Of a stretch of 64,000 bases of DNA, positions 23,631 to 54,548 are shown piece by piece; within the stretch, counting starts at the first letter, position 1, and every line of letters starts with the position of its first letter. The DNA is from Agrobacterium tumefaciens str. B6 (GTDB lineage Bacteria > Pseudomonadota > Alphaproteobacteria > Rhizobiales > Rhizobiaceae). The stretch is taken from assembly GCF_001541315.1 (NCBI RefSeq), contig NZ_LMVK01000001.1:310001-374000 (forward strand), written 5' to 3'. The translations under genes were made by a program, and so were the position numbers. The notes below the pieces were generated by a model, which did no database searches, was not told where the DNA came from, and saw only the letters and a program-made list of their open reading frames with translations.

Positions 23631-24596
23631 ATGAGCGTTCCCAAGTCCCATCCTTTTGATTTCGACCCGACCTATGGCATGCAGCGTGAACAGTTGCTGG
23701 CCATCACCCCGCCCGAGGCGCCGCCGGGCTTCGATGATTTCTGGAAAAAGCGCTATCGCCGCGCACTCGCCACAGATCCTCGACCGGTACTGCGCAAGAG
23801 CAGGCTCAGCGACCCCCGCTGGCATGTCCTCGATATGACCTACACCTCCACCGGCGGTTTTCGTATCGGCGGGTGGCTGCTGCTACCGCGCGAGGGGCAG
23901 GTGCGTCGCGGCCTCGTTGTGGGCCATGGTTACGGCGGTCGTGAGGCTCCTGATTTCGACGTGCCGGTGGAAGAAACAGCCGTGCTGTTTCCCTGTTTTC
24001 GCGGGCTTTCGCTGAGCGCCTGTCCGCCGATCTCGTCCGACCCGGCGCTCCATGTTCTCTATAATATAGACAGGAAAGACGATTACATCATTGGCGGCTG
24101 CGTCGATGATCTGTGGGTTGCCGTTTCCACGCTCATAGCCCTCTATCCCTGGCTGGAAGGGCAGGTGGGTTATAGCGGCATCAGTTTCGGCGGCGGCATC
24201 GGTGCCCTGGCCATCCCTTTCGACGAGCGCATTGATCGCGGCCATCTTGTCGTGCCGACATTCGGACACCGGCCGTTCTGGCTGACGCTGCCCCCCGTCG
24301 GCAGCGCGGATGCGGTTCAGACGTACCAGAAGACCCATGCCAATGTGCTTGAAACGCTGCGCCTGTTCGACGCCGCCTGCGCCGCCGCCCGCATAAAAGT
24401 GCCGATGCTGGTCGCGCCTGCGCTTTTCGATCCGGCAGTGGCGCCACCTTGCCAGTTCGCCGTGGCCAATGCTCTGCCACAATCAAAATTTAATGAAATC
24501 TTCATCCTCGACGCCGGGCATTTCGATTACCCTGACAGCGCATCGCAAGATGCGGTCCATAAGGACAAGGTCAGACGGTTTTTCAAGGTGCCATGA
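23631..24596 (+). CDS. Acetyl xylan esterase/cephalosporin deacetylase-like hydrolase
   Basis: Alpha/beta hydrolase of the AXE1 family, 321 residues from ATG 23631, deacetylating an unknown ester. The N-terminus has the AXE1 feature FDDFWKKRYRRAL. The nucleophile elbow is YSGISFGGG (G-I-S-F-G), the oxyanion RG motif is CFRGLSLS, and the catalytic His is probably in LDAGHFDYP. There is no signal peptide. Its stop overlaps the next esterase gene by ATGA, so the two are translationally coupled. The upstream in-frame extension to 23526 lacks a ribosome site and looks non-coding. Confidence 0.85.
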   Translation: MSVPKSHPFDFDPTYGMQREQLLAITPPEAPPGFDDFWKKRYRRALATDPRPVLRKSRLSDPRWHVLDMTYTSTGGFRIGGWLLLPREGQVRRGLVVGHGYGGREAPDFDVPVEETAVLFPCFRGLSLSACPPISSDPALHVLYNIDRKDDYIIGGCVDDLWVAVSTLIALYPWLEGQVGYSGISFGGGIGALAIPFDERIDRGHLVVPTFGHRPFWLTLPPVGSADAVQTYQKTHANVLETLRLFDAACAAARIKVPMLVAPALFDPAVAPPCQFAVANALPQSKFNEIFILDAGHFDYPDSASQDAVHKDKVRRFFKVP

Positions 24597-25321
24597 AACG
24601 CGAATATCTCCGTTGGTATAGTCAAAGGCTCCATCGCGACATGGAGCTGTTAATATTCGGACATTCTGGCGCCAAGGTGCTGATGTTTCCCACCCGCGAC
24701 GGGCGTTTCTTCGAATATGAGGAACTGGGCCTTGTTGGCAGTCTGGCCGACAAGCTGGAGGCGGGCCACCTTCAGCTCTATTGCATAGAGGGGCTGGCCA
24801 GAGAGACCTTCTATGCGGCCGGGCATCATCCCGCCGATCGCATTCGCAGGCATGCCGCTTTCGAAGAGTATATTCTGAACGAAGTGCTGCCGCTGATGGC
24901 CGAGAAAAACCCGAATAGTGACACGATCGTGCAGGGCTGCAGTCTCGGTGCGTTTCAGGCCGCCAGCCTCGTCTTTCGCCACCCGCATCTTTTTCGCAAG
25001 CTCGTCGCCTTTTCCGGTCGTTATGATCTGACGATGAAGGTGGAATCTTTCGGTGACCTGTTCGACGGCTATTACGACGACGATGTTTATTTTCTCATGC
25101 CGAGCCATTTTCTGCCGGGCCTCGCCTGCCCATGGCGGCTTGATCACCTGCGCCGCATCGACATGGTCTTCGCCATCGGCGATGCCGACCCGTTTCTGGA
25201 CAACAATCATCATCTGAGCCGGGTTCTGTCGGACAAGCAGGTGGGGCATCAGATGCATGTCTGGGATGGCCGCGCCCACCGTGCGGGCGCGTGGCGCAAG
25301 ATGGCTGCGCTTTATATTTGA
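24593..25321 (+). CDS. Esterase-family alpha/beta hydrolase
   Basis: A 242-residue protein resembling the putative esterase (esterase D/mycolyltransferase-like) group. The segment FGHSGAKVLMFPTRDGRFFEYEELG is followed by the nucleophile elbow IVQGCSLGAFQAASL (G-C-S-L-G). An acidic candidate is in AIGDADPFLDN, and the C-terminal HVWDGRAHRAGAW holds a candidate catalytic His. No signal peptide is present. It is coupled to the preceding AXE1-like esterase by a four-base overlap, suggesting related substrates. Confidence 0.82.
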   Translation: MKREYLRWYSQRLHRDMELLIFGHSGAKVLMFPTRDGRFFEYEELGLVGSLADKLEAGHLQLYCIEGLARETFYAAGHHPADRIRRHAAFEEYILNEVLPLMAEKNPNSDTIVQGCSLGAFQAASLVFRHPHLFRKLVAFSGRYDLTMKVESFGDLFDGYYDDDVYFLMPSHFLPGLACPWRLDHLRRIDMVFAIGDADPFLDNNHHLSRVLSDKQVGHQMHVWDGRAHRAGAWRKMAALYI

Positions 25322-25337
25322 GGCCGGGCCTCACCTC

Positions 25338-26207
25338 TCAGGCGAGCAGGAATTCCATCAGGGCATTCTGGGCATGTAGGAGAAATGCCTTCGCTGCCCG
25401 GCTCTGGCAGGCCGGGTGCACCATGGCGTCCGTCGTCACCTCCTGACCACGCGCGACTGGCGGGCAGGGCAAAAAGATCGCATCGGGCCGCATCCTGTCG
25501 AGAAGGGATGCGGATATGCTATAATCCATCAGATGATGATCTGCGCCGGTGGGCCAGGAATCGGTAATGACCACATCCGCATCCAGCAACTCTGCCATCT
25601 CAGTGCTTACCTGGAAGTTCGGATTGATGAGGGCGGCATCGGTGACGTGCCATTGATCGGGATAAACCTGCGTGACCTGAATGGGCAGGGAAATCGAGGC
25701 TTCGACCCATGAGCGTAAAATATTGGCATCCGGTGCCACACCGACGATTTTGAGGCCGTCTATCCGGCCCCTCACGCTTTTGACATAGGCCAAATCGCCA
25801 AGCGTTTCGCATGGATGATTGGACTTTGTCCGCGCGTTGATGACAGGCGCGCGCATTTCGGCTGCAAGCGCCCGGAGGGTCGAGAGTTCTTTCGTGCGGA
25901 CGATCAGCAGATCGAACCAGTTGTCGAGATAGCCCGCCAGATCGGCAATGTCTTCGCGGCCGTTAAAGCTGATCGGAACGGTGACGCAAATGCCGCCCAT
26001 CGCCTGAATGCCAAGATCAAAAGCTGCGGTATTGCGCCAGCCGGTGTCATCAACGATCAGCCCGATGCGCTTTCCCTTGAGGGTCTGTGGCATCGTGGCC
26101 TTTGACCAGTCCTCGGCCAGAGCGCACGCGCGGTCGATGATCGAGAAGACCGCATCCGCAGGCAGGTCGTGAAACTCCAGAAAGTCCTTGCCCGGCTGCA
26201 ACGGCAT
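25338..26207 (-). CDS. Divergent aspartate/ornithine carbamoyltransferase paralogue lacking STRTR
   Basis: A 289-residue relative of ornithine carbamoyltransferase (argF is at 53.6 kb). I set the start at ATG 26207, with GGAGG five bases upstream. The fold is recognisable: an N-terminal LEFHDLPADAV, APVINARTKSNHPCETLGDLAYVKSVRG, GLKIVGVAPDANIL, VVITDSWPTG and a C-terminal FLPCPPVARGQEVTTD. The carbamoyl-phosphate motif S-T-R-T-R is replaced by DDTGWRNT, and the [10 protein letters not shown] site is altered to LPCPPVARGQEV. HPCE partly keeps the HPxQ motif. It is therefore unlikely to be a standard ornithine carbamoyltransferase. It may use a different carbamoyl acceptor or phosphate donor, or be non-enzymatic. 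Confidence 0.8.
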   Translation of the reverse strand: MPLQPGKDFLEFHDLPADAVFSIIDRACALAEDWSKATMPQTLKGKRIGLIVDDTGWRNTAAFDLGIQAMGGICVTVPISFNGREDIADLAGYLDNWFDLLIVRTKELSTLRALAAEMRAPVINARTKSNHPCETLGDLAYVKSVRGRIDGLKIVGVAPDANILRSWVEASISLPIQVTQVYPDQWHVTDAALINPNFQVSTEMAELLDADVVITDSWPTGADHHLMDYSISASLLDRMRPDAIFLPCPPVARGQEVTTDAMVHPACQSRAAKAFLLHAQNALMEFLLA

Positions 26208-26245
26208 ATGCGCCTCCAAAACGACATTCGACCAACGCTGCATTG

Positions 26246-26273
26246 AAAAAGCCGGAAGTCTCCTTCCGGCTTT
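26246..26273 (-). terminator. Inverted repeat upstream of pgi, terminator-like on the minus strand
   Basis: AAAGCCGGAAG and CTTCCGGCTTT form an 11-bp stem with a TCTC loop; read on the minus strand it ends in TTTTTC. It would stop transcription leaving pgi before the carbamoyltransferase gene. Confidence 0.8.
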
Positions 26274-26295
26274 CGTAAATTGCGGCGTGTGGGGT

Positions 26296-27921
26296 TTATC
26301 CCGCCAGTCCCGCCCGCGCCTTCACCAGTCCCTGCGTCGAGCTGTCATGGCCGGCAGCACTTTCCTTGCCTTCAACGACGGGAAGCAGGCCGGTCGCCAA
26401 TTCCTTGCCAAGCTCCACGCCCCACTGGTCGAAGGAGTTGATGCGAAACAGCACGCCTTCGACGAAAACGCGATGCTCGTAGAGCGCGATCAGGCGGCCA
26501 AGCGCAAAAGGCGTCAGCTTGTCGTAGACGAAGGTGATGGACGGACGGTTGCCGGTGAAAACGCGGTGCGGCGCGATGAAATCGGCGAGTTTGTCTTCCA
26601 TGCCCTTGGAAGTGAGCTGGGCTTTCGCTTCGGCAAGCGTGCGGCCCTTCATCAGCGCTTCCGATTGCGCCAGGCAATTGGCGATGAGAAGCTGGTGCTG
26701 GTGGCGCAGTTCTGGCTCAAAACCGTTGGCGGCGATCATGAATTCCGCCGGAATGACGCTCGTGCCCTGGTGGATGAGCTGATAGAAGGCGTGCTGGCCG
26801 TTGGTGCCGGGTTCGCCCCAGACAACCGGGCCGGACTGGCCTTCGACCGGCGTGCCGTCGATGGTCACACCCTTGCCGTTCGATTCCATGTCGAGCTGCT
26901 GCAGGTAGGCGGGGAAACGCGAGAGCCGCTGGTCATAGGGCAGGATCGCCCGGGTTGGATAATTCAGCACGTTGCGGTTATAAAAACCGATGAGGCCGAG
27001 CAACATCGGCAGGTTTTCGCGGATCGGCGCCTCGCGGAAATGCCTGTCCATGGCGTGCGCGCCATCCAGAAACTTGCCGAAATTATCCGGCCCGATGGCG
27101 ATCATCAGCGGCAGGCCGATGGCGGACCAGATCGAATAACGCCCGCCGACCCAGTCCCAGAAACCGAAGATGCGGTCGCTTTCGATACCGAAGGCAGCCA
27201 CCTTGTCGAGCGCGGTCGAAACGGCGGCGAAGTGATGCTTGACGGCTGCTTCACCCAGCTTTTCGGCGATGAAACGGCGCGCCGTGGCGGCATTCGTCAT
27301 CGTTTCGATGGTGGTGAAGGTTTTCGAGGCGACGATGAAAAGCGAGGTCTCGGGGTCAACCAGCTTCAGTGTGTCGGCAATATGTGCGCCATCGATGTTG
27401 GAAACGAAATGCGCGCGTGGGCCATCATGGAAAGGCGCCAGCGCCAGCGTCGCCATGACAGGGCCGAGATCGGAGCCGCCGATGCCGATATTGATGACGT
27501 CGGTAATCTTCTTGCCGGTCGCGCCCTTGAGCGAGCCGGAGCGGATCGCATCGGCAAACTTGCCCATGGCCGCCAGAACGGCGTTCACATCAGCCATCAC
27601 GTCCTTGCCATCAACGAGAACCGGCGTATTGGAGCGGTTGCGCAGCGCGGTATGCAGCACGGCGCGGTCTTCGGTGAAGTTGATTGCCTTGCCGGAGAAC
27701 ATCTCCTCGCGCTTTGCCTCGACGCCGCCTTCGCGTGCGAGCTGTTCGAGAAGCGTGACGATCTCCTCATTCACGGCGCATTTGGAATAATCCATCAGCA
27801 GGTCATCGAATTTGGCGCTGAAACGGCTGAATCTCTTGTCGTCGGCCGCAAAGGCGGCGCGAAGATCGGTTGCGGCTGTGCTGCTCGCCGTTGCTTTCAG
27901 TTTTTCGATGGTGGCCTGCAT
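26296..27921 (-). CDS. pgi: Glucose-6-phosphate isomerase
   Basis: Interconverts glucose-6-phosphate and fructose-6-phosphate in the cytoplasm. The 541-residue protein shows [13 protein letters not shown], the phosphate-binding [13 protein letters not shown], the [13 protein letters not shown] family signature and [15 protein letters not shown] near the C-terminus, all typical of the classical phosphoglucose isomerase family. It is followed by an intrinsic terminator and lies downstream of fadD on the same strand with a terminator between them. Confidence 0.97.
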
Positions 27922-53630: not shown

Positions 53631-54548
53631 ATGGCTTCACCTAAACATTTTCTTGACCTGTCGGCCGTCAGCTCGCAGGACCTGCGGGCAATTCTCGACG
53701 ATGCCCGCGCGCGCAAGGCCGCAACCAAGGCCGGAACGGCGGAAAAGCCGCTTGCCGGCAAGATGCTGGCAATGATCTTCGAAAAGCCCTCCACCCGCAC
53801 CCGCGTCTCCTTTGATGTCGGCATGCGCCAGCTTGGTGGCGAGACGCTTTTCCTCTCCGGTACTGAAATGCAGCTCGGTCGTGCCGAAACGATCGGCGAT
53901 ACGGCCAAGGTGCTGTCGCGTTATGTCGACGCCATCATGATCCGCACGACGGATCATTCGCGCCTGCTGGAGCTTGCCGAGCACGCAACCGTGCCAGTTA
54001 TAAACGCCCTGACTGACGACACGCATCCCTGCCAGATCATGGCTGACATCATGACCTTCGAGGAACATCGCGGCCCGGTCAAAGGCAAGACCATTGCCTG
54101 GACGGGTGACGGCAACAACGTCCTGCATTCCTTCGTGGAAGGCTCGGCCCGCTTCGGTTACCGCATGACAATGGCGGTGCCGATGGGTTCCGAACCCCAT
54201 GACAAGTTCCTGAACTGGGCCCGCAACAATGGCGGCGAAATCATGTTGTGCCACGATGCCGACAAGGCCGTGGCCGGGGCCGATTGCGTCGTCACCGATA
54301 CCTGGGTTTCCATGAACCAGGAACACAAGGCGCGCGGCCACAACATCTTCCAGCCCTATCAAGTCAACGAAGCCCTGATGGCCAAGGCGGAAAAAGACGC
54401 GCTGTTCATGCATTGCCTGCCGGCCCATCGCGGTGAAGAAGTGACGGATGCCGTGATCGACGGTCCGCAATCGGTGGTCTTCGACGAGGCGGAAAACCGC
54501 CTCCACGCGCAGAAGTCCATCATTGCCTGGTGCATGGGCGCCATCTGA
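53631..54548 (+). CDS. argF: Ornithine carbamoyltransferase
   Basis: Makes citrulline from ornithine and carbamoyl phosphate. The 305-residue protein has the full catalytic set: carbamoyl-phosphate motif [27 protein letters not shown] (HPxQ), WVSMNQE (ornithine-binding), and [15 protein letters not shown]. This contrasts with the divergent paralogue at 25.3 kb, which lacks STRTR. Its ATG follows a GGGACG-containing leader 56 bases after argD. Confidence 0.97.

Follow-up and report, generated by a model that had tools for sequence, protein, structure and literature searches.

The natural product of the ornithine carbamoyltransferase (OTC) pocket is citrulline. The motifs SxRT, HPxQ, and HxLP are given in the 2015 review of Shi and colleagues (PMC4581275) as characteristic of all known transcarbamylases, and Table 1 of that review, which supplies the active-site map and the Escherichia coli OTC numbering used here, lists R57, R106, and H133 as carbamoyl-phosphate contacts and has Gln at the Q136 position in 9 of 9 enzymes. 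The second substrate of the YgeW-encoded transcarbamylase (YTCase) is described there as unidentified. The review also remarks that essential motifs are missing from some bacterial sequences, for which new functions are possible; sequences as odd as those described below were therefore foreseen in general terms. ArgK (PsROTC), the phaseolotoxin-insensitive enzyme of Pseudomonas syringae, is presented in PMC10765591 as an active OTC with a protective role that has the sequence SGRTS but is unaltered at HCLP, at SMG, and at the remaining substrate residues.

The locus described here lies in a 64,000-nucleotide stretch of the genome of Agrobacterium tumefaciens str. B6 (the window; contig NZ_LMVK01000001.1, positions 310,001 to 374,000) and encodes a protein in which all three motifs are altered. 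A literature search, mostly of openly readable papers, gave no account of this motif set or of the clade that carries it among the matches listed. Judged from its sequences, the clade is an unusual variant of a known fold family, and the role assigned to it at the level of substrates is a prediction.

Gene, Family Membership, and Predicted Fold

The features of the locus are collected in Table 1. The longest open reading frame at the locus is 25338 to 26243 on the minus strand, but in three orthologues (L007, L011, and L002) an in-frame stop stands just before the start at 26207; the upstream ATG at 26243, which is not conserved, is therefore disfavored, and the ATG at 26207 is most likely the true start.

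Table 1. Positions, in window coordinates, of the gene, its active-site segments, and adjacent features
Feature	Position	Strand	Remarks
Gene of OTC-fold protein, 289 amino acids plus stop	25338..26207	-	coding 26207..25341, stop to 25338
GWRN, residues 56-59, where SxRT is expected	26031..26042	-	Arg58 = E. coli OTC R57
Arg104 = OTC R106, conserved carbamoyl phosphate-binding Arg of strand beta4	25896..25898	-	76/76 rows
NHPCE, residues 130-134, where HPxQ is expected	25806..25820	-	Glu134 = OTC Q136
Asn162 = OTC N167 (ornithine contact)	25722..25724	-	76/76 rows
Residues 216-222	25542..25562	-	Asp216 = OTC D231, kept; then SMG loop shortened, not conserved
PCPPVARGQE, residues 247-256	25440..25469	-	replaces HxLP-region motif
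KAFLLHAQN, residues 273-281	25365..25391	-	Lys273 new; Leu276 at OTC R319 position
Ordinary ArgF, comparison gene	53631..54548	+	
DNA of ~909 bp missing from otherwise matching sites in relatives	25327..26235	.	single-gene content
Terminator-like hairpin between pgi and gene	26247..26274	-	by eye; a scan of the region did not list it
Upstream neighbor, presumably pgi-like	26296..27921	-	
Convergent downstream neighbor, presumably esterase-like	24593..25321	+	

Both halves of the protein exceed the Pfam gathering scores (PF02729 and PF00185, 80.9 and 51.9 bits versus 29.9 and 29.4), with E values in the longer reading frame of 1.3e-22 for OTCace_N and 1.2e-13 for OTCace, and Pfam gave no further domain above the cut-off. 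Fourteen NCBIfam models matched at E ≤1, every one below its cut-off: the best, PRK00779, reached 152.6 bits (cut-off 306), TIGR00658 (ornithine carbamoyltransferase) 107.2 (280.85), TIGR04384 (putrescine carbamoyltransferase) 85.7 (500), the aspartate carbamoyltransferase models PRK00856 and TIGR00670 62.9 (263) and 52.7 (236.95), and PRK04523 (N-acetylornithine carbamoyltransferase) 44.8 (288). The initial annotation had placed a normal ArgF at 53.6 kb, and that protein indeed has STRTR, HPCQ, and HCLP and passes the cut-offs of both OTC models, PRK00779 and TIGR00658. Because the Pfam E values are strong and the substitutions described below are invariant in the rows examined, the family resemblance combined with the substitutions is, on these comparisons, not attributable to chance.

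An AlphaFold2 model made with 58 clade sequences (pLDDT 94.4, pTM 0.92) groups with OTCs in Foldseek (E 3.4e-22 to 4f2g), and VIA-align superimposes model residues 6-289 on the solved OTC of Arabidopsis, 8qev_A, with a Z of 37.2 and an rmsd of 1.7 over 284 residues. The predicted structure has the OTC/transcarbamylase fold, as had initially been proposed, but it should be recognized that a common fold alone leaves the reaction undemonstrated.

Active-site Substitutions

In an alignment of the clade protein with the window ArgF, to which it is 27% identical, EKPSTRTR corresponds to DDTGWRNT and a second 12-residue stretch of ArgF to LPCPPVARGQEV, so that the replacement of STRTR and that in the HxLP region, both pointed out in the initial annotation, are confirmed. 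HPCE had been regarded as a retained motif, but the canonical form given in PMC4581275 is HPxQ and HPCE is thus a third substitution; three family motifs are altered together, SxRT to GWRN, HPxQ to HPCE, and HxLP to PCPP. The altered OTC positions are K53 (Asp54), S55 (Gly56), T56 (Trp57), T58 (Asn59), Q136 (Glu134), L274 (Pro249), and R319 (Leu276), and those kept are R57 (Arg58), R106 (Arg104), H133 (His131), N167 (Asn162), D231 (Asp216), and C273 (Cys248). S235 and M236 of OTC are absent along with the SMG loop; of the DxxxSMG ornithine loop, Asp216 is kept and the commonest residues at positions 220 and 221 reach fractions of 0.29 and 0.49. Two new polar residues, Arg126 in place of Leu and Lys273 in place of Ala, are invariant. 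The changes of K53 and R319, the loss of the SMG loop, and the two new basic residues had previously been missed. At the position of OTC Q82*, in the 80's loop, the residue is variable, being Ser in 0.32 of clade rows, and Arg84 is present in 50 of 75. A side-chain count (K53 to Asp, R59 to Thr60, Q136 to Glu, R319 to Leu, plus Arg126 and Lys273) gives a loss of about three positive charges, in which it should be noted that K53 is Lys in 0.72 of ArgF rows and that R59 is not a listed contact. The earlier description of a protein without its carbamoyl-phosphate motif is correct in that the phosphate motif is remodeled, but is overstated, since the equivalents of R57, R106, and H133 are invariant.

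The ornithine loop of the window ArgF is SMN, and 25 ArgF-type rows comprise 14 with SMG, 9 with SMN, and 2 with SMH; in these sequences the last letter of SMG varies among real OTCs.

Conservation and Selection

Relatives were collected by a scan of genome contigs with the peptide patterns NHPCE[TI]LG and A[GA]YL[DGA]NWF, which yielded 148 stretches and 128 relatives. Conservation was scored in the best 80 of the 128, the 48 weaker ones being excluded, so that the counts describe the nearer relatives. Among these best 80 loci, a frameshift or stop interrupts 5, and the matched region is uninterrupted in the other 75; L113 is a truncated copy, and in the remaining 74 the open match is nearly full length. 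The window protein and the 75 open loci make up the 76 conservation rows. GWRN, which was not a search pattern, is present in 75 of the 75 rows having residues there, and CPPV, also not a search pattern, in all 76, with Pro before CPP in 75. HPCE is found in 76 of 76 rows, a count biased by its use as a search pattern, but it also occurs in L031 to L036 and L121, all of which were found without that pattern. Asp216 and Lys273, like Arg104 and Asn162, are each present in every one of the 76 rows.

When 82 clade rows are considered, at least 95% invariance is observed at 13 of 16 OTC active-site positions versus 69 of 273 others (Fisher p 9e-6) and, with the search-pattern stretches removed, at 11 of 14 versus 59 of 259 (p 3e-5), p values that take no account of relatedness. 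At 23 positions one residue is present in at least 95% of clade rows and a different one in at least 90% of the 25 ArgF-type rows; 15 of these positions belong to the last helix or to the three motifs and their immediate surroundings. Conservation of the changed residues among relatives had been proposed as a check, and they are invariant or nearly so; random decay is rejected for the clade, and the substitutions, as far as sequence comparison goes, mark a clade and not decay.

Values of dN/dS within the host genus range from 0.113 to 0.198 (mean 0.139, 15 pairs), and the means in five other groups from 0.145 to 0.226. The corresponding means for neighboring genes in five genomes, whose products we take to be pgi, esterase-like, hydrolase-like, and sugar-kinase-like, are 0.033, 0.075, 0.052, and 0.041, respectively. 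These ratios indicate that the gene is constrained but is under weaker purifying selection than its neighbors. Its dS is 0.36-0.83 versus 0.29-0.61 for pgi and is the higher of the two in 8 of 10 comparisons (10 of the 15 genus pairs); values near or somewhat above those of pgi would fit inheritance at the pgi site within the genus.

Distribution and Phylogeny

In the host genus, 11 of 37 genomes carry the gene, including the genome studied here, and 24 genomes from other families of the order gave no match above 32% identity. A draw of genomes from the phylum contained 5 carriers in 398, again with its own genome included, and a draw from the order 5 in 347, G000 and three others being common to both draws. 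A sixth genome above the threshold in the phylum draw (G201) was rejected, its match being an ordinary ArgF. The named hosts are species of Rhizobium, Neorhizobium, Agrobacterium, Bradyrhizobium, Pseudomonas, and Roseomonas, together with plasmids of Rhizobium, Variovorax, and Pantoea. The copy in Rhizobium johnstonii 3841 (L110) is frameshifted, and this strain is not considered a gene-bearing host; a plasmid of Rhizobium sp. WYJ-E13 has a piece-wise 43% match.

A quick tree of 57 rows, in which support is given as SH-aLRT only, places the clade as one group apart from the alphaproteobacterial ArgFs (SH-aLRT 98 without L128 and 100 with it); row L138 is a wrong reading frame (branch length 10) and meaningless, and L134 is a 209-residue fragment. 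Variovorax nests with Bradyrhizobium, and Pseudomonas stands beside Rhizobiales, placements that are as expected of transfer. The gene had initially been described as a paralogue, but with 27% identity to the window ArgF and a clade of its own, it is better regarded as a homologue that was acquired horizontally, and in the genomes and tree examined the clade is sparsely distributed and separate from ArgF.

Locus L128 (L128:280-1149) encodes an OTC-like protein on a mobilizable Frondihabitans plasmid, beside recombinase and IS3 transposase genes. The protein keeps SLRT and has NHPCE, PCPP, and the equivalents of Lys273 and Leu276. It is 30% identical to the window protein and joins the clade on a long branch in the quick tree, a placement that is unsure, as the tree tool warned, since long branches meet there. 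It is possibly a sister of the clade or an evolutionary intermediate; if truly a sister, a lead to be followed would be that HPxQ and HxLP changed before the phosphate motif. A search of plasmids for more such sisters gave 148 matched records, of which 147 were less than 60% identical and the remaining one was the L128 record itself, and there were none in viral contigs.

Clade members are also present on mobile elements. The Ti plasmid pTiL51_94 (L136/L113) has a truncated, unannotated copy among toxin-antitoxin and transposase genes, and Pantoea sp. At-9b has copies on two plasmids, L034 (pPAT9B01) and L035. In L034 the first copy has a fos gene directly upstream, and a duplicated block contains a second, partial copy. 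Two IMG/VR contigs, L157 and L158, contain a clade member, GWRN having been part of the search pattern. The member in L158 (1176-2030) is 48% identical, with a nearby open reading frame that has a weak match to a tail protein (E 9.7e-5) and another that is presumably chorismate-mutase-like; the region is perhaps a prophage border. No family of anti-phage defense in PADLOC-DB matched at E ≤1, and of 17 matches in phage records the ten best listed are ≤27.9% identical, as would be expected of ordinary OTCs. On these PADLOC-DB and phage-record comparisons, a phage or defense gene was rejected.

Genomic Site

The pgi locus was compared with that of 14 genomes of the genus that are without the gene there, two of which (G002 and G027) carry it elsewhere. 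In 7 of the 14 (L143 to L148 and L150), the pgi terminator region lies directly after the end of the esterase gene, and in L143, L146, and L150 the junction can be placed to within a few bases; L149 has a different spacer, and in 6 of the 14 genomes the esterase side did not align. No direct repeat of at least 12 bases was found. From this alignment the ~909 bp are an indel that holds one gene, and either gain or loss would fit. The hairpin between pgi and the gene leaves little space for a promoter; a promoter scan gave a single match, on the plus strand and inside the gene (shuffles mean 0.4, S.D. 0.7).

Neighbors were surveyed at loci L031 to L116, minus L035, L081, L103, L108, L109, L112, and L113; a Pfam scan of 40 neighbors left 6 without a match at E 1e-5. 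The surveyed neighbors vary by lineage and include, besides the presumed pgi, triosephosphate isomerase with CTP synthase, poly-hydroxybutyrate (PHB) polymerase with MAPEG, nucleotidyl transferase, ribosomal protein L19, aldehyde dehydrogenase, a GntR-aminotransferase regulator, GNAT, EamA, and others. An operon partner was rejected, because the surveyed neighbors are unrelated and change between lineages. The CTP-synthase-like neighbor in L090 was rejected as a second paralogue; it follows the triosephosphate isomerase gene and is probably an ordinary pyrG. GNAT, EamA, LysE, and FosA-like neighbors (LysE and fos being named in an annotated record, and the LysE of L121 a name that we presume) might suggest accessory cargo, but genes of these kinds are frequent and no weight is given to the suggestion.

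Discussion

The phosphate-binding motif is remodeled and its new form is conserved across orthologues, and a changed donor and/or acceptor, one of the possibilities raised in the initial annotation, is the best reading. That the protein belongs to a discrete OTC-fold clade and is a re-purposed enzyme whose donor or reaction differs from that of OTC is a view to which we give about an even chance. The sequence suggests that it is probably an enzyme acquired by horizontal transfer, in which binding of an ornithine-like amino acid persists and the donor pocket is remodeled, and that it is thus probably not an OTC. It would form the usual trimer, in which Asn162 and Asp216 would continue to hold an ornithine-, citrulline-, or arginine-like amino acid; an ornithine-like head is likely because the equivalents of N167 and D231 are invariant. 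Loss of the SMG loop may leave a more open entrance, with space for a larger or differently capped amino acid. The donor half would retain a core for binding anion and carbonyl groups, formed by Arg58, Arg104, His131, and main-chain amides, and would have exchanged Ser55, Thr56, Thr58, Gln136, and Arg319 for Gly, Trp, Asn, Glu134, and Leu276 with the addition of Arg126 and Lys273. That the region would be about three charges less positive argues against ordinary carbamoyl phosphate as the sole donor. The most likely reaction would act on an amino acid or an antimetabolite and would transfer or hydrolyze a related group, either ureido, amidino, or another acyl phosphate, in an accessory nutritional or detoxification function that may be carried by one gene.

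It should be noted that the motif change is not proof of the loss of carbamoyl phosphate, since R57, R106, and H133 are kept, the main-chain amides would remain, and ArgK is active with SGRTS. The interrupted copies in some strains and a selection weaker than that on neighboring genes also count against the best reading, and the analysis brought to light no pathway, partner gene, or substrate. The protein could still be a transcarbamylase that depends on carbamoyl phosphate but cradles the phosphate unusually, by means of Arg58, Arg104, Asn59, main-chain amides, and perhaps Lys273 for Arg319, and that has a novel amino acceptor of greater size than ornithine. We estimate the likelihood of this at one chance in four, as the invariance of the equivalents of R57, R106, H133, C273, N167, and D231, the activity of ArgK (PMC10765591), and the presence of SLRT with HPCE and PCPP in the possible sister L128 all speak for it, as does the Lys at the R319 position of YTCase and the diaminopropionate and diaminobutyrate transcarbamylases (DPTCase and DBTCase) in Table 1 of PMC4581275, although the Lys is here three residues earlier. 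However, the protein departs from SxRT, HPxQ, and HxLP simultaneously, the 80's loop does not supply a conserved additional contact, and the replacement of Gln136 by Glu is invariant, whereas all nine enzymes of that table have Gln. A conserved pocket would also be expected of a ligand sensor, and the loss of the defining motifs and the stand-alone accessory distribution are compatible with a non-catalytic pseudoenzyme acting as a sensor, as a decoy for an OTC-directed antimetabolite, or as a subunit mixing with ArgF. Against this, which we consider rather unlikely, are the invariance of His131, Arg58, Arg104, Cys248, Asn162, and Asp216, the lack of any other domain above the Pfam cut-off, and the spread among distant hosts, where the ArgFs encountered are only 26-32% identical, which does not favor an obligate partnership with the local ArgF.

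An improbable further reading is that the site accepts guanidino or amidino amino acids (arginine, canavanine, homoarginine, or a related antimetabolite) for deiminase, hydrolase, or amidino-transferase chemistry. Glu134 would then bind a cationic amidine where OTC binds a neutral carbamoyl group, contacts to phosphate would be dispensable, Cys248, His131, and Glu134 might constitute a new catalytic set on the transcarbamylase fold, and the compounds would be ones that plant-associated bacteria use or detoxify. The retention of Arg58 and Arg104 weakens this proposal, unless an anion binds too. An ordinary OTC arising by duplication of ArgF and a decaying pseudogene are very improbable even when taken together. 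The former is hardly to be expected, for although the top NCBIfam match is the OTC model PRK00779 and public records name clade proteins ornithine carbamoyltransferase (for example WP_233943161.1 and WP_013511294.1), the PRK00779 score is half of the cut-off, the motifs and SMG loop are changed, the clade is separate, and an intact ArgF is present. The latter, which we credit least, could draw on the 5 of the best 80 of 128 loci that have a frameshift or stop, L110 among them, and on the truncation of L113, but 74 of the 80 are open, dN/dS is ~0.14, and conservation is higher at active-site positions than elsewhere in the protein.

At the least, the public annotations of clade proteins as ornithine carbamoyltransferase, and the metabolic models built on them, need correcting. 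If the protein is an enzyme, SxRT, HPxQ, and HxLP no longer characterize every transcarbamylase, and the clade would be a natural experiment in the rebuilding of this pocket, with L128 as a possible intermediate. Rhizobia, Agrobacterium, and other soil bacteria would then also be exchanging a metabolic trait that consists of one gene.

The clade resembles OTC (ArgF, TIGR00658) in its fold, in its similar length, and in the equivalents of R57, R106, H133, N167, D231, and C273, but differs in having GWRN, HPCE, and PCPP, Leu for R319, and Asp for K53, and in the absence of an SMG loop. ArgK likewise has an altered S*RTR motif and comes from a second gene of the OTC fold, but according to PMC10765591 it keeps HCLP and SMG, which the clade does not. 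YTCase shares a Lys at the R319 position, whereas it is knotted and keeps SxRT, HPxQ, and HxLP (PMC4581275). The diaminopropionate and diaminobutyrate transcarbamylases are similar in belonging to the OTC branch and in having changed HxLP and SMG motifs, but, unlike the clade, they are described as keeping SxRT and HPxQ (PMC4581275; PMC6022934). L128 has HPCE, PCPP, Lys273, and Leu276 in common with the clade and differs from it in keeping SLRT.
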